A stretch of DNA of 64,000 nt, from contig NZ_QZWH01000044.1 of assembly GCF_003601925.1 (NCBI RefSeq), forward strand, positions 62,001-126,000, read 5' to 3'. The stretch is from Buttiauxella izardii. Lineage in GTDB: Bacteria; Pseudomonadota; Gammaproteobacteria; Enterobacterales; Enterobacteriaceae. How positions within the stretch are numbered: position 1 is the stretch's first letter; every line of letters starts with the position of its first letter. Positions 51,447 through 60,120 of the stretch are shown piece after piece. A program made the translations under genes and the position numbers. The notes beneath the pieces are model-generated. The model saw only the letters and a program-made list of their open reading frames with translations. It was not told the DNA's origin and made no database searches.

Positions 51447-51707
51447 TTATTTATAGATAACCGCAGTACCGCTCATTTTGCCGTTGGTGTTAGCAGAAGT
51501 GATTGAGTACGCTTTTGCGCCCGCTTGTTCTGCTTTAGAAGCCAGTTGCGCTTCCAGACCATCCAGAGTGGTTGCGTTGTCAGCAGAAACCACGCCGATT
51601 TTGTTCATGTTCTGAGCGTCAGCAGCGCTGATAGATTGTGCAGCCATGGCACCGAAAGAAAGAGTGGTCAGGGCGATAGCGGCTACAGCATATTTGATGG
51701 TTTTCAT
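51447..51707 (-). CDS. ybiJ: YhcN/DUF1471-family periplasmic protein YbiJ
   Basis: An 86-residue small secreted protein, the length of E. coli YbiJ. The signal peptide is MKTIKYAVAAIALTTLSFGA up to MAA, then a BhsA/McbA domain (NKIGVVSADNATTLDGLEAQ, ending KMSGTAVIYK). Family members respond to stress and biofilm conditions. A perfect-looking CRP site lies about 57 bp upstream of the ATG. Confidence 0.93.
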   Translation of the reverse strand: MKTIKYAVAAIALTTLSFGAMAAQSISAADAQNMNKIGVVSADNATTLDGLEAQLASKAEQAGAKAYSITSANTNGKMSGTAVIYK

Positions 51708-52066
51708 AGTTAATTTCTCGCAGGTTATTCTGTTTAAGGTGACGTTGTTCCGTCGATGTGATTATGGTCACACTTTTGAGCAGAATATAAAATCGAATAG
51801 AATTGACGGCCTTGTTCAATTTTTTTGAAGTTGAGTTAAATCATTGAAATGAGTGATGATTAGCGAGCGAATCATCATTGTTAATTGTGTGATCCAGATC
51901 CCGCTTCGCTTTCCGCATTTTTTGCTACTTTTTTTCATAAGATAGAACTGGTCTGGCCTGCAATCGCTTGCGCGCTATTTTTACGATAATGTGTGGATTT
52001 GTTCTTTCCGCTGCGACACTTACTTTTATAATGAAGATCTTACTTAACTCATGATGAAGAGGTTCG
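51708..52066. other. 359-bp gene-free region, ybiJ promoter side
   Basis: It lies between the divergent ybiJ and the transposase-like gene. It contains the CRP-like site at 51757 and A+T-rich stretches with direct and inverted GAGTGATGATTAGCGAGCGA-type sequence near 51849. No reading frame with a ribosome-binding site was found. Confidence 0.6.
51757..51772. promoter_or_regulatory. CRP-like site upstream of ybiJ
   Basis: TGTGATTATGGTCACA matches the CRP consensus TGTGA-N6-TCACA at all ten fixed positions. Confidence 0.75.
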
Positions 52067-52888
52067 ATGGAGATCAAGCTGCACTCCAACGCCACCACCA
52101 CGCCACGTACCCGCAAATATATTCAAAGCTCTGACAAAACCGACAGTGAACTGGCGGAAGAGCTGAACATTTCTGTGGATACCGTCAGGCGTTGGCGTAA
52201 GCGAGATGACTGTTATGACAAATCTCATCGGCCTAATACCATTCATCGTGCGCTGAGCCACGAACAAGAAGCGATGCTGGTCTTTCTGCGTGTGCGATTA
52301 TCGCTTTCTCTCGATGAGCTTGTGGAAGCTGCACAGTTACTCGTTCAGCAGGGAATTTCCCGCGCAAGCGTTAGCCGCACGTTGCAAAACTGGCAGCAAT
52401 CCCGTCTGTCGAAACCTGATTTAAAGCAGCCCGTCGGGCATTTACGCCTTGATGTGTTTTCGCTTCCTGAAAGCATTAGCCATAAACATGGCGCGTTGCT
52501 GGCCTTTAGCTGCCCGGTTTCTGGGTTTTTGGCTGTGGCATTGCGTGAACGTGACGAACAGCAATCGCTTGATGCGCTGGTGGGTTTTTTGCAGCAGGGC
52601 TTACTGTTAAAAGTGAAATCGTTGACTGCCTGCTCAACGAAGCTGACGCAGGAGCTGGCGCAAAGGCTCGACGTTCCGCTGGATGAAGCCCAGCCGGAAG
52701 CCTGGCAGGAAAGAGCAGCAAGTGGCGAATGGGCGCAAACGCTGGAACAGTTACTCAACGGCGAGCGCTACGATAGGCGTTTGGGTTTTGGCGCGGTGTT
52801 GCTGGAATTTGAAGATTTGCTGAATAAGCGGATTATCCGCAGCCGACTTAAAAACCTCACGCCGGCTGCGTGGCTAAAAACTCGTTAG
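52067..52888 (+). CDS. Degenerate IS481-type transposase homologue, probable DNA-binding protein
   Basis: A 273-residue protein whose layout follows IS481-family transposases: N-terminal helix-turn-helix (TRKYIQSSDKTDSELAEELN, ISVDTVRRWRKRD), a second HTH (LDELVEAAQLLVQQGISRAS), then an rve-like core (LRLDVFSLPESISHKHGALL) and a C-terminal end (NGERYDRR...LKNLTPAAWL). The first Asp is retained (Asp129), but the second catalytic position reads LTACSTKL near residue 188 instead of a T-D-N type motif, and no catalytic Glu is evident. No terminal inverted repeats flank it. The ATG follows AGAGG. Domesticated regulator or fossil transposase; the homology is my judgement from sequence pattern. Confidence 0.65.
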   Translation: MEIKLHSNATTTPRTRKYIQSSDKTDSELAEELNISVDTVRRWRKRDDCYDKSHRPNTIHRALSHEQEAMLVFLRVRLSLSLDELVEAAQLLVQQGISRASVSRTLQNWQQSRLSKPDLKQPVGHLRLDVFSLPESISHKHGALLAFSCPVSGFLAVALRERDEQQSLDALVGFLQQGLLLKVKSLTACSTKLTQELAQRLDVPLDEAQPEAWQERAASGEWAQTLEQLLNGERYDRRLGFGAVLLEFEDLLNKRIIRSRLKNLTPAAWLKTR

Positions 52889-53190
52889 TTAATCAGGCTC
52901 AATGCGTGGTCAAGAATTTTCTCCCCGTTGACCATGCCGTAATCCATCATATTAATAGTTTCCACTCGCTTATTGAGCGGCGCGGCAATCTGTTTACAGT
53001 CCGCCAGTTTATAAGCGATTTGCGGGCCAAGAAGCGCGCAATCAAAAGCGGTAATCACGTTTTTAAAATCGCTCATGCCCTTCGCCTGAATCTCAACTTC
53101 AAGCCCACGTTTCACCGCCGCTTCCTGCATGCGTTTGACCACCAGACTGGTCGACATGCCTAAATCACATACCAGCAGAATCTTTTTCAT
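52885..53190 (-). CDS. PTS lactose/cellobiose-family EIIB component
   Basis: A 101-residue soluble EIIB. The phosphocysteine is Cys8 in KILLVCDLGMSTSLVV. Length and fold blocks (AFDCALLGPQIAYKL) match ChbB/CelA-type EIIB. The ATG at 53190 has AAGGAAAG and lies inside the end of the aminopeptidase gene (26-bp overlap). Its stop overlaps the convergent transposase-like gene by 4 bp. Last gene of the operon with the EIIC at 55607; no EIIA is encoded here. Confidence 0.93.
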   Translation of the reverse strand: MKKILLVCDLGMSTSLVVKRMQEAAVKRGLEVEIQAKGMSDFKNVITAFDCALLGPQIAYKLADCKQIAAPLNKRVETINMMDYGMVNGEKILDHALSLIN

Positions 53191-54634
53191 TTGTCTTTCC
53201 TTTGCAGATATCGAGTAAAAATTGCGTCAGTAACAGAGCAGGGCGTCCGCTGGCCTGGGTGTATTTACCCCGGCTCAACGCGGTGCCGCTGACATCTAAA
53301 TGCGCCCATGGCGACTTGTGGCAAAACTTACTCAAGAATTGAGCGGCGGACACCGCAATGGCCGCATTATTGGGCGGCGTGTTGGTGAAGTCGGCGATAG
53401 GGCTTTTGACTTGCGAATCAAAGCTTTCATCCAGCGGCAGCGGCCAGACACGATCTTGCGTCAGGTCGGCTGCCTGCTGTAACTGCTGGCTGAGAAGGGA
53501 ATCGTTACTCATCATGCCGGATATGTCATAACCGAGCGCTTTGACGACAGCCCCCGTCAGGGTGGCGACGTCAATTAATGCCGCCGGATTAAAGCGCGTG
53601 GCGGCGTAACTCAGCGCATCTGCCAAAACCAGGCGGCCTTCGGCGTCGGTATTAATAATTTCAACGCTATGACCGGCGTGCGATTTCACCACGTCACCCG
53701 GCAGCATGGCGTCAACGCCCGGCATATTTTCTGCCAGCGCCATCACCGCGACCACGTTGAGCGGCAGTTGCAGCGTTTTAACGGTTTCCATCAACCCGAA
53801 AACCGTAGCGGCACCGCACATGTCGTACTTCATGGTGCGCATCCCTTCGCCTTCTTTCAGCCACATTCCGCCAGTATCGAACGTGATGCCTTTGCCGACG
53901 AATGCGTAGTACGGCGCATTTTCAGCCGCCCCTTGCCAGCGCAGCGTCACCAGGCGCGGCGGGTTGTTGCTGCCTTTTCCTGTGGCATCCAGGCAACCCA
54001 TGCCGAGTTCGCGAATGGCGTTTTCATCAAGGATGTCACAATGGGTTTGCGGGTGCGCGGAAGCCCAGTTTGCAGCCTGCTGTGCCACATCTAGCGGACG
54101 GCAATCGTTGGCTGGCGTATCGGCAAGTTTTCGGGAAAGCAACATGCCCTGAGCAATGGCCTGCGTTTGTGCCGCCAGTTCCGTTGCTTGCGCGCTGTGC
54201 TCCGGGGTTAATAGCCAAAGTTGCCCGTTGCTGGCGGGTTGTTCTGCCTTGTAACCGAGTTGCGGCAGCTGATAGAAACGGTTGATCACCGCCACTAACA
54301 GCGTGCGCAGGCGGGCGAACACCACATTGTTTGCCAGATCAAAAGCGGAAATATCGATAGCTATGGGGTGTGAAGCTGGGGTTGCCAAAACGGTATTCAG
54401 ATACTCCGTTATCTGGCGCAAAACGTCGGGGCGCTCAATGTCAGCAGAAGATAAAAGCGTCAGCTGTTGGCAAAGGCTGCTTAAACCGAAAGCCGTGGTT
54501 TGTGATTCATCACGCAGCGCCATTTCATCCAGCAGCGGGCGCAGCGTCTGCGGCCACGCATTGGCGTGTGTTTTCCACACTAGTAAATGTGCGTCTGCCG
54601 GGCATTTCGACAGTGTCGATAACTGGCATCTCAT
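53165..54634 (-). CDS. M17-family leucyl aminopeptidase
   Basis: A 489-residue cytosolic di-zinc aminopeptidase. The C-terminal catalytic domain shows VGKGITFDTGG (metal-binding Asp and catalytic Lys), MKYDMCGAATVFG, and the family signature NTDAEGRLVLAD; ATLTGAVVKALG follows. The N-terminal half is divergent. It overlaps the glycosylasparaginase gene by 4 bp (ATGA) and EIIB by 26 bp. The E. coli paralogues PepA and PepB lie elsewhere, so this is an extra, operon-dedicated peptidase. A role in trimming glycopeptides is inferred. Confidence 0.92.
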   Translation of the reverse strand: MRCQLSTLSKCPADAHLLVWKTHANAWPQTLRPLLDEMALRDESQTTAFGLSSLCQQLTLLSSADIERPDVLRQITEYLNTVLATPASHPIAIDISAFDLANNVVFARLRTLLVAVINRFYQLPQLGYKAEQPASNGQLWLLTPEHSAQATELAAQTQAIAQGMLLSRKLADTPANDCRPLDVAQQAANWASAHPQTHCDILDENAIRELGMGCLDATGKGSNNPPRLVTLRWQGAAENAPYYAFVGKGITFDTGGMWLKEGEGMRTMKYDMCGAATVFGLMETVKTLQLPLNVVAVMALAENMPGVDAMLPGDVVKSHAGHSVEIINTDAEGRLVLADALSYAATRFNPAALIDVATLTGAVVKALGYDISGMMSNDSLLSQQLQQAADLTQDRVWPLPLDESFDSQVKSPIADFTNTPPNNAAIAVSAAQFLSKFCHKSPWAHLDVSGTALSRGKYTQASGRPALLLTQFLLDICKGKTNEKDSAGM

Positions 54635-55599
54635 ACGATCACCTCGGCGGTAATACGTTCGACATAGGCATCAAGCCAGGCTTGATCGGCTGGGCGAATC
54701 AGCGTGTGTTTGCCTTCGCGGGTGGTTAAAAACACCGTCGGCGTTTGGTCTGGCGTGGCGACGGAGAACGAGAAGTTATCGATAGTCGTGGCGGCACCGT
54801 ATTCACCCCGGTTATTCATGCACACCACCGATAAATCCCCGGCGCGACCGTAGCGGGCGATTAACTGGCTTTCGAGGTCATAAACGGCGGATTCAGCCGC
54901 CTGTTGTGGCGACATACCGCGCCCCATGCGGCTGACGATTTCATAACTGATGCAGCCTTTCATCAAGTCTTCGCCAAGGCCGGTGGCGGTGGCGGCACCA
55001 ATCTGGCTGTCGGCATAAAAACCAGAACCGGAAACCGGCGAGTCGCCCACGCGGCCAGGGCGCTTCATAAACAAGCCGCTGGTGGAGGTGGCGACGCACA
55101 TTTGCTGATTCTGATCGAGGGTGATCACGCCAACTGTATCGTGCCCGGTGTACGGGCTGAGGCAGCGATCCAGCGTTTCGCGTTTGCGTTTCAGGTAATG
55201 CTGGTGCGCACGGTCGGTCAGCATGTTTTTGCGCTCAAAGCCCTGCGCGAAAGCCCAGGTTTGTGCTCCTTCGCCAACCATAAAGCTGTTAAAACGCTCA
55301 CGGCTTAACGCTTGTGCGACCAGAATCGGGTTAGCGATATCACGGATGCTGGCTACTGCGCCGATGGCAAGTGTGGAGCCGTCCATAAATGCGGCGTCCA
55401 GCTCAACCAGACCCTGCTCGTTGGGCAGGCCGCCGTAGCCGACGGATTTATAGAAGGGATAATCCTCCACGCACTTTACCGCTTGAACCGCAGCCGAAGC
55501 GGCGTCGCTTTGTGTTTGTAACAGTTGCGCGGCCTCGCTGATCCCTTCCCAGGCCATACGCCAGGTCGCTATCACGCCCCAGTTTTTCGATAACGTCAT
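54631..55599 (-). CDS. N4-(beta-N-acetylglucosaminyl)-L-asparaginase-like Ntn hydrolase
   Basis: A 322-residue T2-family hydrolase expected to self-cleave before Thr155 in GHDTVGVI, making that Thr the nucleophile. The HDT context and RPGRVGDSPVSGSGFYAD (substrate-binding Arg/Asp) fit glycosylasparaginases better than IaaA-type isoaspartyl peptidases, which read GTVG. No signal peptide, so cytoplasmic. It lies 7 bp after EIIC and overlaps the aminopeptidase. Expected reaction: release of aspartate and the amino sugar from GlcNAc-Asn; a phosphorylated sugar is possible given the PTS. Confidence 0.88.
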   Translation of the reverse strand: MTLSKNWGVIATWRMAWEGISEAAQLLQTQSDAASAAVQAVKCVEDYPFYKSVGYGGLPNEQGLVELDAAFMDGSTLAIGAVASIRDIANPILVAQALSRERFNSFMVGEGAQTWAFAQGFERKNMLTDRAHQHYLKRKRETLDRCLSPYTGHDTVGVITLDQNQQMCVATSTSGLFMKRPGRVGDSPVSGSGFYADSQIGAATATGLGEDLMKGCISYEIVSRMGRGMSPQQAAESAVYDLESQLIARYGRAGDLSVVCMNNRGEYGAATTIDNFSFSVATPDQTPTVFLTTREGKHTLIRPADQAWLDAYVERITAEVIV

Positions 55600-55606
55600 G
55601 TTTTAC

Positions 55607-56914
55607 TTACTCCGTGGCGGGTTTAGTGGTGGCTGAAATTTCCGGGGTTTCATTCGCCCGGTATTGCTTGTCCACGACTTTCAGGAATGGCAGATAGATG
55701 ATGGCGCCAATCAACAGATTGATTAGCTGAATAACAGCACCGCTGAGATGCCCGGTAACGATAAATCCGCTCAGTACCGGAGGCAGCGTCCATGGGATAT
55801 AAACCCCGGTAGTGGTGGCGACCCAACCTATCGACATGGCGATGTATTGCACGGTGACCAGCACCAGCGGCACCAGGTTGAATGGGATAAGCATGATCGG
55901 GTTCATGATCACCGGCAGGCCAAACAGCACCGGCTCGTTAATGTTGAACAGGGAAGAACCCGCCGCGAGGCGCGAAACGTTCTTAATGTGCTGGCTGCGG
56001 GCAAACAGCAGCATAGCAATCACCAGAGACAAAGTGGCACCCGCGCCGCCCATCCAAATCATGTCGTAGAACTGCTCGGTGACAACATGCGGTGGCAACA
56101 AACCTGCCTGCGTGGCGGTCAGGTTTTCCATCTGGTTTTCCATCCAGAAGGGACGCAGGATGCCGTTGACCATCGAACCGGAGTTAATCCCAACCGACCA
56201 CAGGCTGGTGATGCTGAAACAGGTAAACAGCGCGCCAACATAAGAGGTGCCGAAGTGGCGGATTGGCGTTGCCAGCACTTCATAAACGAACTGGTGAATG
56301 GTGTGGTAATCGGTGCGGGCGAACAGCACGCGAATCGCCAGCGCAATTACCAGAATCAGCAGCGAGGGAATCAACGCCGCAAAGGATTTTTGCACCGCAG
56401 GCGGCACGCCGTCTGGCATACGAATCACCCAGTTTCGGCTCAGCATCCAGGCAAACAATTCCGTGCTGGCAATCGCACCCAGCATCGCCACAAACAGGCC
56501 TTTAGAACCCAGCCATTCCATCGGGATCAGGTTGCCGATTTCGGCTGTTTTGGCAAAAGGCGTGAGGATCAAAAAGCAGGAGAGAGACAAAATCCCGGCT
56601 GACATTTTGTCGATGTCGTAGCGCTCCGCCAGACGATAGGCGACGAGGAAACTAATGAACACCGCCATGGTGGAGAAAATGGCATTAAACGGAATTTCGA
56701 TGGTGGCTGACCAACCTTCACCAAAAATCGACGCCATAAACTGTTGATAGGCTGTGCTTGGGAAAGAGGAGATAACCAGCAGGATTGAACCGACAATAAT
56801 AAACGGCATAAACGAGATATACGCATCGCGAATGGCCCCGAGGTGGCGTTGTTGCGCCATTCTTCCGGCAAGGGGCATCAGCTTTGCTTCTATTGCGGCC
56901 ATCAGGTTTTTCAT
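55607..56914 (-). CDS. PTS lactose/cellobiose-family EIIC permease
   Basis: A 435-residue membrane component with about ten hydrophobic segments. Typical blocks are RHLGAIRDAYISFMPFIIVG, FSITSLWSVGINSGSMVNG, and SLFNINEPVLFGLPVIMNP. The ATG at 56914 follows GGAG; an upstream frame to 56947 lacks support. First gene of a four-gene operon (EIIC, glycosylasparaginase, aminopeptidase, EIIB). The family handles beta-linked disaccharides such as chitobiose and cellobiose; the cargo here is not proven. Confidence 0.93.
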   Translation of the reverse strand: MKNLMAAIEAKLMPLAGRMAQQRHLGAIRDAYISFMPFIIVGSILLVISSFPSTAYQQFMASIFGEGWSATIEIPFNAIFSTMAVFISFLVAYRLAERYDIDKMSAGILSLSCFLILTPFAKTAEIGNLIPMEWLGSKGLFVAMLGAIASTELFAWMLSRNWVIRMPDGVPPAVQKSFAALIPSLLILVIALAIRVLFARTDYHTIHQFVYEVLATPIRHFGTSYVGALFTCFSITSLWSVGINSGSMVNGILRPFWMENQMENLTATQAGLLPPHVVTEQFYDMIWMGGAGATLSLVIAMLLFARSQHIKNVSRLAAGSSLFNINEPVLFGLPVIMNPIMLIPFNLVPLVLVTVQYIAMSIGWVATTTGVYIPWTLPPVLSGFIVTGHLSGAVIQLINLLIGAIIYLPFLKVVDKQYRANETPEISATTKPATE

Positions 56915-56989
56915 TGTTACCGCTCCGTAAGGAATCACAAGAGACAATTCTTGTGCTGCATACAGTAGAGATTGTTAGCGGTGAAAAAA

Positions 56990-57005
56990 GTGAGTTAATT
57001 CACAG
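56990..57005. promoter_or_regulatory. CRP-like site upstream of the EIIC operon
   Basis: AGTGAGTTAATTCACA matches TGTGA-N6-TCACA at nine of ten fixed positions. It lies 76 bp upstream of the EIIC ATG, in the right place for CRP activation of a PTS operon. Confidence 0.65.
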
Positions 57006-57124: not shown

Positions 57125-58426
57125 TTACATCAGTCCGAGCAATTTAGGAATGAACAAGGAAATTGCAGGAACATAGGTTATCAGCATCAGCGAGACAAAC
57201 AGCGCGGCGTAGAAGGGCAGCAATGGCTTGATAAGATTCTGAATTTTAACGCCTGTAATCGAACAACCGACAAACAATGCGCTACCCACTGGCGGTGTCA
57301 GCAAGCCGACACACAGGTTCGCCACCATCATGATGCCGAAATGAACCGGATCCATCCCCAAATCCTGGGCAATCGGCAGGAAGATTGGCGTGAAGATCAG
57401 CACCGCAGGCGTCATATCCATGAAGATGCCGACAATCAGCAGCACAATGTTGATCAGCAGCAGAATCACCAGCGGGTTATCGGAAATGCCCATCAGCGTG
57501 TCGCTGATCATGTACGGAATATCGGCGTTGGTCATCGCCCATGACATGCCCACCGAGAAGCCAATCAGCAGCAGAACAATGGAAGTTGTGACCACTGAAT
57601 CAAGAATCAGTTTCGGTAAATCACGCCATTTCACTTCACGATAGATAAGCACCGAGAGCACAAAGGTGTACACCACCGCGATGGCTGAGGCTTCTGTCGC
57701 GGTAAAGACGCCGCCCAGAATCCCGCCCATAACGATAATCACCAGCAGCAAACTTGGTAGCGCATCAAGAAACGCTTTGAAGGCTTGCGCGCAAGTTGGA
57801 CGCGCTGATACCGGATAACCGCGACGTTTGGAGATAATCCAGCACACCAACATAACTGACAGGCCCATTAATATGCCCGGCAAATAACCGGCCATAAACA
57901 ATGAGGCTACCGAAACGCCACCCGCTGTTAGCGAGAAAACGATCAGCACGTTAGAAGGCGGGATCAGCAACCCGGTAATACAGGATGAAACGTTAACCGC
58001 CGTGGAAAACGCCGGGTCATAACCTTCTTTGTTTTGAATCGGCGAAAGCGTGCCGCCAACGGCTGCGGCGGCTGCTACTGCTGAACCGGAGATTGAACCA
58101 AACATCATGTTCGCCAGCACGTTAACGTGGCCGAGGGAACCTGGAATACGCCCAACCATAATTTGCGCGAGGTTGATTAAGCGGATGGCTATGCCGCCGC
58201 TGTTCATCAGGGTTCCGGCAAAGATAAAGAACGGGATTGCCAGCAGCGCAAAGTTATCCAGCCCGTTAGCGAGGCGCTGTGAAACGGTGATGATTGCCAC
58301 ATCCCACGGGAACATCAGCAGCATTGAAGAAACGGTGGCAATGCCAATGGCAAATGAAATCGGAACGCCGATAAACACCAGCACGAAGAACGCGCCAAAT
58401 AAAGTGAGGGCGATATAAGTTTCCAT
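57125..58426 (-). CDS. TRAP transporter large permease (DctM type)
   Basis: A 433-residue DctM permease with about 12 hydrophobic segments, including NMMFGSISGSAVAAAAAVGG and LLIPPSNVLIVFSLTAGG, characteristic of the family, and TPPVGSALFVGCSITG near the end. It catalyses sodium-driven uptake with DctQ and DctP. Its start overlaps the DctQ stop by one base. Last gene of dctP-dctQ-dctM. Confidence 0.94.
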   Translation of the reverse strand: METYIALTLFGAFFVLVFIGVPISFAIGIATVSSMLLMFPWDVAIITVSQRLANGLDNFALLAIPFFIFAGTLMNSGGIAIRLINLAQIMVGRIPGSLGHVNVLANMMFGSISGSAVAAAAAVGGTLSPIQNKEGYDPAFSTAVNVSSCITGLLIPPSNVLIVFSLTAGGVSVASLFMAGYLPGILMGLSVMLVCWIISKRRGYPVSARPTCAQAFKAFLDALPSLLLVIIVMGGILGGVFTATEASAIAVVYTFVLSVLIYREVKWRDLPKLILDSVVTTSIVLLLIGFSVGMSWAMTNADIPYMISDTLMGISDNPLVILLLINIVLLIVGIFMDMTPAVLIFTPIFLPIAQDLGMDPVHFGIMMVANLCVGLLTPPVGSALFVGCSITGVKIQNLIKPLLPFYAALFVSLMLITYVPAISLFIPKLLGLM

Positions 58427-58923
58427 TATTTCCCTTCCTTGCTGACCAGAGTGTGAGCGTCGGTCAGGATAAAATAGAGCGAGTAAAACATCATGATTGC
58501 GCCGCTTAATGGCAGCACAATGTAGACATACCCCATCGGAATTTGTAACGCCGCGGAGAGCTGCGAAGTGGCTAAGGTTTTTTCAATCAGCTTCAGGCCG
58601 CCGTTGACGATCACCGCGCCCGAGAACAGCAACACCAGCGTGTTGATGAGAATACCGAGCAACGGCTTTTTATGGTCTGGCAGCATCATGGCAAGAAAAT
58701 CGATGGACAGATGGCGTTGCGCACCAACGGTATAGGATGCGCCCAACAGACCCACCCAAATCATCAGAAAACGCGCCAGTTCATCGGTGAGGGTGCTGGG
58801 CTGGTTGAGGACGTAGCGGCTGAAAACCTGCCACACCACGCAGACGACCAGAGCGACCATCACCAGCACAGAAAATGTGGCAATAGTCCGGTCTACCGCA
58901 AGCTTTATGGGCTTAAGTATCAT
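58426..58923 (-). CDS. TRAP transporter small permease (DctQ type)
   Basis: A 165-residue small permease with four hydrophobic segments and the DctQ block TDELARFLMIWVGLLGASYT. The region before its ATG has only AGG-type pairing (TTCAGGTATG). It lies 72 bp after DctP and overlaps DctM by one base. Confidence 0.92.
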   Translation of the reverse strand: MILKPIKLAVDRTIATFSVLVMVALVVCVVWQVFSRYVLNQPSTLTDELARFLMIWVGLLGASYTVGAQRHLSIDFLAMMLPDHKKPLLGILINTLVLLFSGAVIVNGGLKLIEKTLATSQLSAALQIPMGYVYIVLPLSGAIMMFYSLYFILTDAHTLVSKEGK

Positions 58924-58995
58924 GTTTGCATACCTGAAATTTAACCTGGACGAGCGGGCGATGACTGATCACCCGCTGAAACTTACCGTTCTAAA

Positions 58996-59982
58996 TCACT
59001 CAGCAGCGGATTCAAATTTAGCCAGCAACGCGGCCTGTTTTGGATCTTTGGCGAAGTCGTCATACAGCGGTTTTACAGCGGCACGGAACGGGGCTTTATC
59101 AACGGTGAGAATCGTCGCGCCCATGGCTTTAGCCTGAGCACGGGAATCGGCATCGACTTTCTCCCAAAGCTTTTGTTGATACGCTTCGGAATTTTTTGCC
59201 GCTTTCATCAGGATTTGCTGCTGTTCAGGGGAGAGCTTCGCCCAGGTTTTGGTCGAGATCACGAGGAAGTCTGGAATGGAAGTATGTTCATCTTCCGAGA
59301 ACACTTTAGCGATCTCGATATGGCGAGTCTGAACCCATGACGGCACGTTATTTTCAGCACCATCGACCACGCCTTGCTGCATGGCGGTATACACTTCGCC
59401 GAAGGAAATAGGAGTGGGGGAACCGCCCATTAATTCCACCATTTTCAGCGTCGTTGGGCTGGCTTGTACGCGAATTTTCAGCCCTTTTAAATCTTCTGGT
59501 TTGGTAATTGGTTTTTTTGCATAAAAACTACGGGTGCCCGCAACGTAAGCGGAAATACCAAAGAACCCTTTATCTTTCGTCGATTCCATAATTTCTTTGC
59601 CGACTTCACCAAACACCACGCGATTAAAATGCGCCTGGTCTTTAAATAAATACGGTAAATTATAAATCGCGTAAGTATTGTCAAAAGATTCCAAATCACT
59701 GGCCGAGCCTTTGGTCATATCCAGCGCACCATTTTGCAATAATTCTAGTGTTTCGCGGGCGCTACCCATTTGGCTACTCGGGTAAATACGAATACGCATA
59801 TTACCGTCAGAAAGTTGTTGTACCTCTTTGGCTAATTCTTCAAAGGCCAGATGCACAACGTGGCTGCGTTCCAGATTATGCGCGAGTTTCAGGGTTATTT
59901 TATCTGCGGCATTTGCGCCTGTGGCGCATAAAGTTATTAGCGAGGCACACAGTAGCTGGCGTGGTAGGGTAAAAAGTTTCAT
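58996..59982 (-). CDS. TRAP transporter substrate-binding protein (DctP type)
   Basis: A 328-residue periplasmic binding protein. The signal peptide ends near ATGANA-ADKITLK. The conserved Arg that binds the substrate carboxylate is in LKGLKIRVQASPTTLKMV, followed by FGEVYTAMQQGVVDGAENN. The substrate is a carboxylate (sugar acid, dicarboxylate or sialic acid-like), not determinable here. The ATG at 59982 follows GGGAG; the frame from 60000 is not favoured. Confidence 0.93.
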   Translation of the reverse strand: MKLFTLPRQLLCASLITLCATGANAADKITLKLAHNLERSHVVHLAFEELAKEVQQLSDGNMRIRIYPSSQMGSARETLELLQNGALDMTKGSASDLESFDNTYAIYNLPYLFKDQAHFNRVVFGEVGKEIMESTKDKGFFGISAYVAGTRSFYAKKPITKPEDLKGLKIRVQASPTTLKMVELMGGSPTPISFGEVYTAMQQGVVDGAENNVPSWVQTRHIEIAKVFSEDEHTSIPDFLVISTKTWAKLSPEQQQILMKAAKNSEAYQQKLWEKVDADSRAQAKAMGATILTVDKAPFRAAVKPLYDDFAKDPKQAALLAKFESAAE

Positions 59983-60120
59983 CAATAATGCTCCCTGCAA
60001 AAAAGGTTAAGTGATATTGCGAGATAGCGATTGCTGTATGACAGCTTATTGTATTTGTCCGATAACCATGTTGTGTTGACTTCACATTTTTAGTCTAACA
60101 GGATTGGTTTAGATCTTTTT

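Follow-up and report, generated by a model that had tools for sequence, protein, structure and literature searches.

A probable enterobacterial relative of the Enterococcus ega locus for the use of N-acetylglucosaminyl-asparagine in Buttiauxella izardii

A stretch of 64,000 nucleotides from Buttiauxella izardii (contig NZ_QZWH01000044.1, positions 62,001 to 126,000; hereafter the window) contains an operon of four minus-strand genes, which encode enzymes IIC and IIB (EIIC, EIIB) of a phosphotransferase system (PTS), a glycosylasparaginase (GA) and an M17 exopeptidase. This operon is very probably related to the ega locus of Enterococcus, importing and degrading N-acetylglucosamine-beta-asparagine (GlcNAc-Asn) and perhaps very short peptides bearing it, and the most likely source of the substrate is the sugar-asparagine stubs left from digested glycoproteins. 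The original prediction for this DNA had proposed such a dedicated PTS and cytoplasmic glycosylasparaginase as a new route, with the fra pathway of Salmonella for comparison; fra too serves the use of a sugar-asparagine nutrient, but its chemistry and gene families differ. The assignment is supported by gene content across phyla and by the ega locus of E. faecalis (PMC11160706), but since that locus is published the PTS route to GlcNAc-Asn is already on record for Enterococcus and the claim to novelty is rejected, ega and not fra being the nearest known system. New with respect to ega are an M17 peptidase for the M20 dipeptidase, the apparent loss of enzyme IIA (EIIA) and an unusual probable regulator.

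Within the Enterobacteriaceae the genes occur together. In a survey of 295 genomes of the family, GA had matches at E up to 1e-10 in 150, with at least 63% identity in 32 genomes, 45% in one (G264) and 32-40% in the others among the matches listed, which presumably represent an isoaspartyl-peptidase paralogue. EIIC was present at 70% identity or more in exactly the 32 GA genomes (next best EIIC, 43%), and the proposal that the four genes form one unit is upheld, since such shared occurrence of EIIC and GA orthologues is not due to chance. A helix-turn-helix (HTH) gene adjacent to the operon, overlooked in the original prediction, travels with it, and its product was found in 33 genomes, namely the 32 with GA and one (G158) with a weak partial match. 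Comparison of the GA, EIIC and HTH genome lists by script gave a Fisher p of 4.6e-42, with kinship ignored, and in all 32 genomes the HTH gene and GA lie on one contig, approximately 3 kb apart or less (coordinates compared by eye). The closest named relatives of the window GA are from Buttiauxella (L036-L039; 93-95% identity), and none of 5,426 Escherichia coli genomes covered 80% of EIIC plus GA, the five matches listed being 79-base stretches of chbC.

The association of GA with a PTS extends across phyla. When 84,980 species genomes were scanned with GA-derived patterns, 232 relatives were obtained; the best 80 of them, together with three plasmid loci and the window, make up a set of 84 loci (35 from Gammaproteobacteria and 49 from Firmicutes) whose closeness to the query follows from the way they were selected and which are not independent, including as they do four Clostridioides difficile loci and four contigs of one Clostridium. 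Neighbours were counted within 6 kb of GA, a distance available on both sides in 38 of the 49 Firmicutes loci, using profiles built only from hand-chosen clusters, with other neighbour families left unannotated. EIIC adjoins GA in all 35 gammaproteobacterial loci, accompanied by the HTH gene in 34, M17 in 32, EIIB in 16, EIIA in 11 and CutC in one. In the Firmicutes loci, an M20 peptidase is present in 43, CutC in 36, EIIC in 33, EIIA in 32 and EIIB in 28, with any PTS gene in 41; further neighbours are PRD regulators (19), LevR-like proteins (17), M42 peptidases (6), aspartase (9) and malic enzyme (7), the last two of which fit aspartate as a product. A peptidase of the M17, M20 or M42 type is found in 32/35 and 43/49 loci, respectively, and the M17 peptidase of the gammaproteobacterial operon takes the place of the M20 dipeptidase. 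Enterobacteria, Vibrionaceae, Pasteurellaceae and many Firmicutes, among them Clostridioides difficile (L075, L077, L078, L083), would have an ega-like route. In addition, 33 genomes of a 395-genome draw from the class of Erysipelothrix matched the GA profile, from which a second set of 31 GA stretches was taken (at least four already in the first set), with any PTS gene in 15 and CutC in 19; the low-scoring GAs (L298-L305) have no PTS gene in view, and neither do some high-scoring ones.

Three further features of these loci were observed. A GrdB-like protein of half length and lacking selenocysteine (NF041545; e.g. L075:8403-8921) lies within 6 kb of GA in 27/49 Firmicutes loci, often between EIIC and GA, and is perhaps the same as the putative oxidoreductase pseudogene of the ega locus. 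Clostridium sp. KNHs214 (L068-L071) has GA on four contigs with similar neighbours, reflecting either amplification or assembly redundancy. In two genomes that apparently read TGA as Trp, GA is clustered with EIIA, EIIC, EIIB and an M20 or M17 peptidase (L295:7496-13185 and L297:7227-12609), with long EIIC frames of 762 and 653 amino acids.

The hydrolase itself most likely cleaves GlcNAc-Asn, to judge from its sequence. Its best solved relatives are glycosylasparaginases (181 bits), compared with 121 bits for the best isoaspartyl peptidase/asparaginase, and its Asparaginase_2 domain contains His153-Asp154-Thr155 and RVGDSP (183-188), as originally described with Thr155 as the nucleophile. Thr155, Arg183 and Asp186 do not vary among 28 sequences in a first alignment (A1). 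A larger alignment of 116 sequences served to contrast 91 GAs with a PTS gene in view and eight low-scoring GAs without one, leaving outside the contrast 16 other sequences and the Elizabethkingia stretch. In it, Trp13, Thr155, Arg183, Asp186 and Gly207 of GA correspond to W11, T152, R180, D183 and G204 of the Elizabethkingia glycosylasparaginase, with one of the 91 rows gapped at Trp13, and replacement of these Elizabethkingia residues by alanine leaves 3.1-4.3% activity, according to PMC13204146. By eye, the start of GA is not signal-like, and the enzyme is therefore expected to be cytoplasmic. Five positions, Arg14 (adjoining Trp13), Lys51, Arg130, Pro149 and Gly254, carry the same residue in at least 95% of the 91 PTS-locus GAs, a residue found in at most one of the eight contrast GAs. 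They would fit a bound phosphate, and descent explains them equally well.

A residue signature was also found in the transporter. A solved match of EIIC is 3qnq, the chitobiose transporter ChbC of Bacillus cereus. In ChbC, E334 and H250 bind chitobiose, and both residues are common to maltose and glucose transporters (PMC8193941, PMC11393339). The window EIIC keeps the glutamate (Glu327), but Asn244 (codon 56185-56183) occupies the position of His250. This position is Asn in 71/71 EIICs of GA loci (all those above 1000 bases, three of them 7-8 kb from GA), as opposed to His in 24/24 controls, comprising 3qnq, three paralogues from the same genome and 20 hand-picked paralogues. Moreover, nine long EIICs of GA loci in the second set have Asn (at least one is a repeat), while a second EIIC of L279, away from GA, has His, and Asn is present in the EIIC motif of both TGA-recoding loci. 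The 35 gammaproteobacterial EIICs form one supported group in the EIIC tree; a single origin of all 71 is neither shown nor excluded, and the tree requires two changes. The His to Asn exchange provides a one-residue marker of the GA-linked transporter.

The arrangement of the genes (Table 1) is compact, with a 7-bp gap between EIIC and GA (55600-55606), a 4-bp overlap of GA and M17 (54631-54634) and a 26-bp overlap of M17 and EIIB (53165-53190). Gene positions, names and spacings all agree with the original prediction, and the Pfam scores of the four proteins are above cut-off. EIIC and EIIB domains of the Lac family and the EIIB cysteine are present in the window. The HTH gene ends with a 4-bp overlap of the EIIB gene end. 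Upstream of the operon and on the same strand are TRAP transporter genes (dctM, dctQ and dctP; 57125-60000), which are not counted as part of it because they occur, among the loci compared, in the five Buttiauxella ones alone.

Table 1. Features of the operon region, in window coordinates
Feature	Position	Strand	Evidence
PTS EIIC, Lac/cellobiose family (P0004, 435 aa)	55607..56914	-	PF02378 190.8 bits; TIGR00410 445.7 bits; 3qnq 384 bits
Cytoplasmic glycosylasparaginase GA (P0003, 322 aa)	54631..55599	-	PF01112 (Asparaginase_2) 211 bits; Trp13, Thr155, Arg183, Asp186 present
M17 (leucyl-aminopeptidase family) exopeptidase (P0002, 489 aa)	53165..54634	-	PF00883 370 bits; NF002074 433.2 bits, cut-off 415
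PTS EIIB, Lac family (P0001, 101 aa)	52885..53190	-	PF02302 (PTS_IIB) 69.3 bits; matches 4mge, 2l2q; Cys in VCDLGMSTS
Probable regulator, HTH + RNase H-like protein (273 aa)	52067..52888	+	IS481 model 48.8 bits; co-occurrence; fold match IstA transposase
CRP-like site TGTGAATTAACTCACT	56989..57004	-	75-90 bp upstream of EIIC start

Gene content, co-occurrence and residue signatures point to a route in which the substrate, its phosphorylation, the order of steps and the regulation in Buttiauxella would be as follows. EIIC would import the sugar-asparagine and phosphorylate the sugar, presumably at O6, together with the EIIB of the operon and an EIIA supplied by a different Lac-type PTS; from any substrate that is a peptide, the M17 peptidase would trim the residues on either side. 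GA would then split the sugar-amide bond, yielding aspartate and 1-amino-GlcNAc-6-phosphate, which on loss of ammonia would become GlcNAc-6-phosphate for consumption by NagA and later enzymes. Control would probably be exerted by an exapted transposase together with CRP. Elsewhere the Buttiauxella genome has one nagA, one cutC and three Lac-type EIIA genes, one of them in a chbBCARFG-like cluster (L139; named by eye), and hence EIIA could be borrowed, from chb for instance, as had been suggested.

The HTH protein is likely a transposase-derived regulator of the operon and looks like an exapted IS481-like transposase. It matches IS481 transposases over residues 22-120 (48.8 bits; 60.3 bits in L046), and its predicted structure (mean pLDDT 86.3) has the IstA transposase as best match, followed by retroviral integrases; an HTH and an RNase H-like fold, as in IS481 transposase, are both present. 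The first core-strand Asp is not conserved in the alignment (A2), the other catalytic positions having been judged by eye only. The orientation of the gene varies: it converges with the operon in Buttiauxella as well as in Cedecea colo, davisae and neteri, whereas in Klebsiella, Hafnia and Citrobacter loci it diverges from EIIC. CRP probably controls the operon as well. In 24/35 gammaproteobacterial loci, many of them from close relatives, a CRP-like site with no more than one mismatch precedes the EIIC match by 90-106 bases, compared with 0.8% of mononucleotide shuffles; in the window alone such sites are not beyond chance (three versus 1.54 expected). A perfect CRP-like palindrome, TGTGATTATGGTCACA, is also present at 51757-51772, between the genes at 51447-51707 and 52067-52888.

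In Firmicutes, CutC is a frequent neighbour of GA (e.g. L056, L058, L060, L066, L067, L073, L075, L078, L079, L080, L083, L084 and L088) and often follows M20 (20 pairs, with a median of 16.5 bases between profile matches). To our knowledge the function of CutC is unsettled, a literature search found nothing linking it to glycosylasparaginase, and its position near GA offers a metabolic partner. In four Firmicutes genomes that were searched in full (the source genomes of L113, L075, L067 and L056), there is no CutC copy besides that at the GA locus. Among 291 Clostridia genomes, GA occurs in three, too few for a co-occurrence analysis, and any CutC in 20, of which 18 are without GA at E up to 1e-20; the role of CutC is therefore not tied to GA alone. 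At 18 loci outside GA clusters (L173-L190), CutC lies near ABC proteins (4), amidohydrolases (3), alpha-L-fucosidase (2) and GH130 (1), which is a hint only, as 71 of the 98 listed neighbour proteins were scanned and families were given for 25 of 87. A combined proposal, in which the EIIC family, having Asn where His binds the substrate, phosphorylates GlcNAc-Asn, GA acts as a phospho-glycosylasparaginase recognising the 6-phosphate via Arg14 and Arg130, CutC acts on 1-amino-GlcNAc-6-phosphate in Firmicutes and the gammaproteobacterial transposase regulates the operon, is unlikely to hold in all its parts; if true, it would offer a testable phosphate-dependent hydrolase and a transposase-derived regulator.

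Several observations weigh against the assignment to GlcNAc-Asn import and degradation. A stop codon is present inside the EIIC frame in 3/32 genomes (G134, G126 and G228); among the Firmicutes loci, EIIC is lacking within 6 kb in 16/49 and from the entire locus in 13/49, some through a contig end, and in the second set just 11/31 stretches have EIIC in view. Loss of the substrate-binding His could alter phosphorylation, and Arg14, Lys51 and Arg130 may mark descent and not phosphate binding, as may all five positions, because the eight contrast GAs are more distant, there is one exception each and the Elizabethkingia enzyme has Arg in place of Lys51. EIIA is absent from the window cluster. Among the gammaproteobacterial loci, both EIIA and EIIB are missing within 6 kb in 19/35, and 5/35 have EIIB without EIIA (four Buttiauxella loci including the window, and the split EIIB of L040); since the remaining 11 (Vibrionaceae, Histophilus, Serratia, Hafnia, Providencia and others) keep both, the EIIA of the Buttiauxella operon has probably been lost. 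The EIIB gene also seems to be on its way out, as it is split over two frames in Cedecea colo (L040:11422-11665) and missing in one Buttiauxella (L038). The trimming of peptides by the aminopeptidase to expose Asn, also part of the original prediction, is uncertain: a peptidase is present in most loci, but 9/84 (three Vibrionaceae and six Firmicutes) have none of M17, M20 or M42 within 6 kb, and in Lactobacillus casei PepV is dispensable and GlcNAc-Asn alone does not support growth, as described in PMC6960285.

It is very unlikely that the hydrolase is instead an isoaspartyl peptidase/L-asparaginase, merely co-transcribed with a PTS for an unrelated beta-glucoside. The superfamily is the same, and EIIC passes the cellobiose model TIGR00359 (445.7 vs 434.45), but the match of GA to the IaaA equivalog model NF007589 (121.9 bits) falls short of the cut-off of 567 bits, and the segment around Trp13 is aligned in none but the glycosylasparaginases among its 56 solved matches. 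Moreover, the genome contains a separate Asparaginase_2 gene (404 bits), and the link of GA with a PTS recurs across phyla and is published for Enterococcus (PMC11160706). Import of chitobiosyl-Asn (GlcNAc2-Asn), with a glycosidase from elsewhere first removing the outer sugar, is similarly improbable. The relationship of EIIC to 3qnq, the chitobiose transporter ChbC, and GH4-like genes beside two other Lac-type PTS of the genome (by eye) are in its favour, but this part of the original prediction is weak because gammaproteobacterial clusters contain no glycosidase inside them among the profiled families: GH1 is directly beside GA only in Endozoicomonas (L049) and within 6 kb in 11/35 gammaproteobacterial and 0/49 Firmicutes loci, and the replacement of His250 by Asn suggests another sugar pose.

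A different N-linked sugar-asparagine as substrate, for example glucosyl-Asn, likewise has little probability; it is suggested by the cellobiose subfamily of EIIC and by the fact that GlcNAc and glucose are indistinguishable from sequence. By the title of Combret et al. (Res Microbiol, PubMed 37977353), use of GlcNAc-L-asparagine reportedly depends on catabolic and transport enzymes of the ega locus, which speaks for GlcNAc. The characterised relatives also act on GlcNAc-Asn (PMC6960285).

The proposed GlcNAc-Asn operon can be compared with several known systems. The Elizabethkingia glycosylasparaginase (1p4k, 9gaa) shares the Thr nucleophile and substrate residues, but has no equivalents of Arg14 and Arg130. 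The Chb-type PTS (3qnq) shares the EIIC and EIIB families, and differs in His250 and in operon partners. In the alf-2 cluster of L. casei BL23, which serves fucosyl-GlcNAc-Asn, a cytoplasmic AsnA2 with a catalytic Thr is likewise encoded beside a peptidase gene and yields Asp and 1-amino-GlcNAc, which decays without an enzyme at acid pH, but a major facilitator superfamily (MFS) permease, a fucosidase and a sugar kinase stand in place of the PTS (PMC6960285); no fucosidase, MFS permease or ROK kinase was found among ten window proteins scanned. A PTS is defined, and asnA2-cluster species of the curvatus/sakei kind are named, in the Figure 7 legend of the same paper, and Latilactobacillus sakei has LSA1690 (EIIC), LSA1692 (GntR) and LSA1693 (asnA2) (PMC3146418). 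In Latilactobacillus curvatus (L035), GA occurs with GntR, a GrdB-like protein, EIIC and a Sapep dipeptidase, the peptidase and regulator families differing from those of the window.

The closest comparison is with ega of E. faecalis, in which EgaG, an N4-(beta-N-acetylglucosaminyl)-L-asparaginase, is encoded together with EIIB and EIIC of a lactose/cellobiose PTS and an oxidoreductase pseudogene, with a GntR regulator and a dipeptidase under a separate promoter (PMC11160706). The loci of E. raffinosus (L033) and E. gilvus have the ega gene set plus EIIA, and the E. raffinosus GA, the one compared in place of that of E. faecalis, is 57% identical to the window GA. GntR, the dipeptidase and the oxidoreductase-like gene are peculiar to ega (neither GntR nor dipeptidase was among the ten window proteins scanned), whereas the window has M17, the HTH/RNase H-like neighbour and no EIIA. 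Common to both are GA, EIIB and EIIC of the Lac/cellobiose type and a peptidase, for GlcNAc-Asn. The operon is real and conserved, and most likely has the same role in enterobacteria as ega in Enterococcus.

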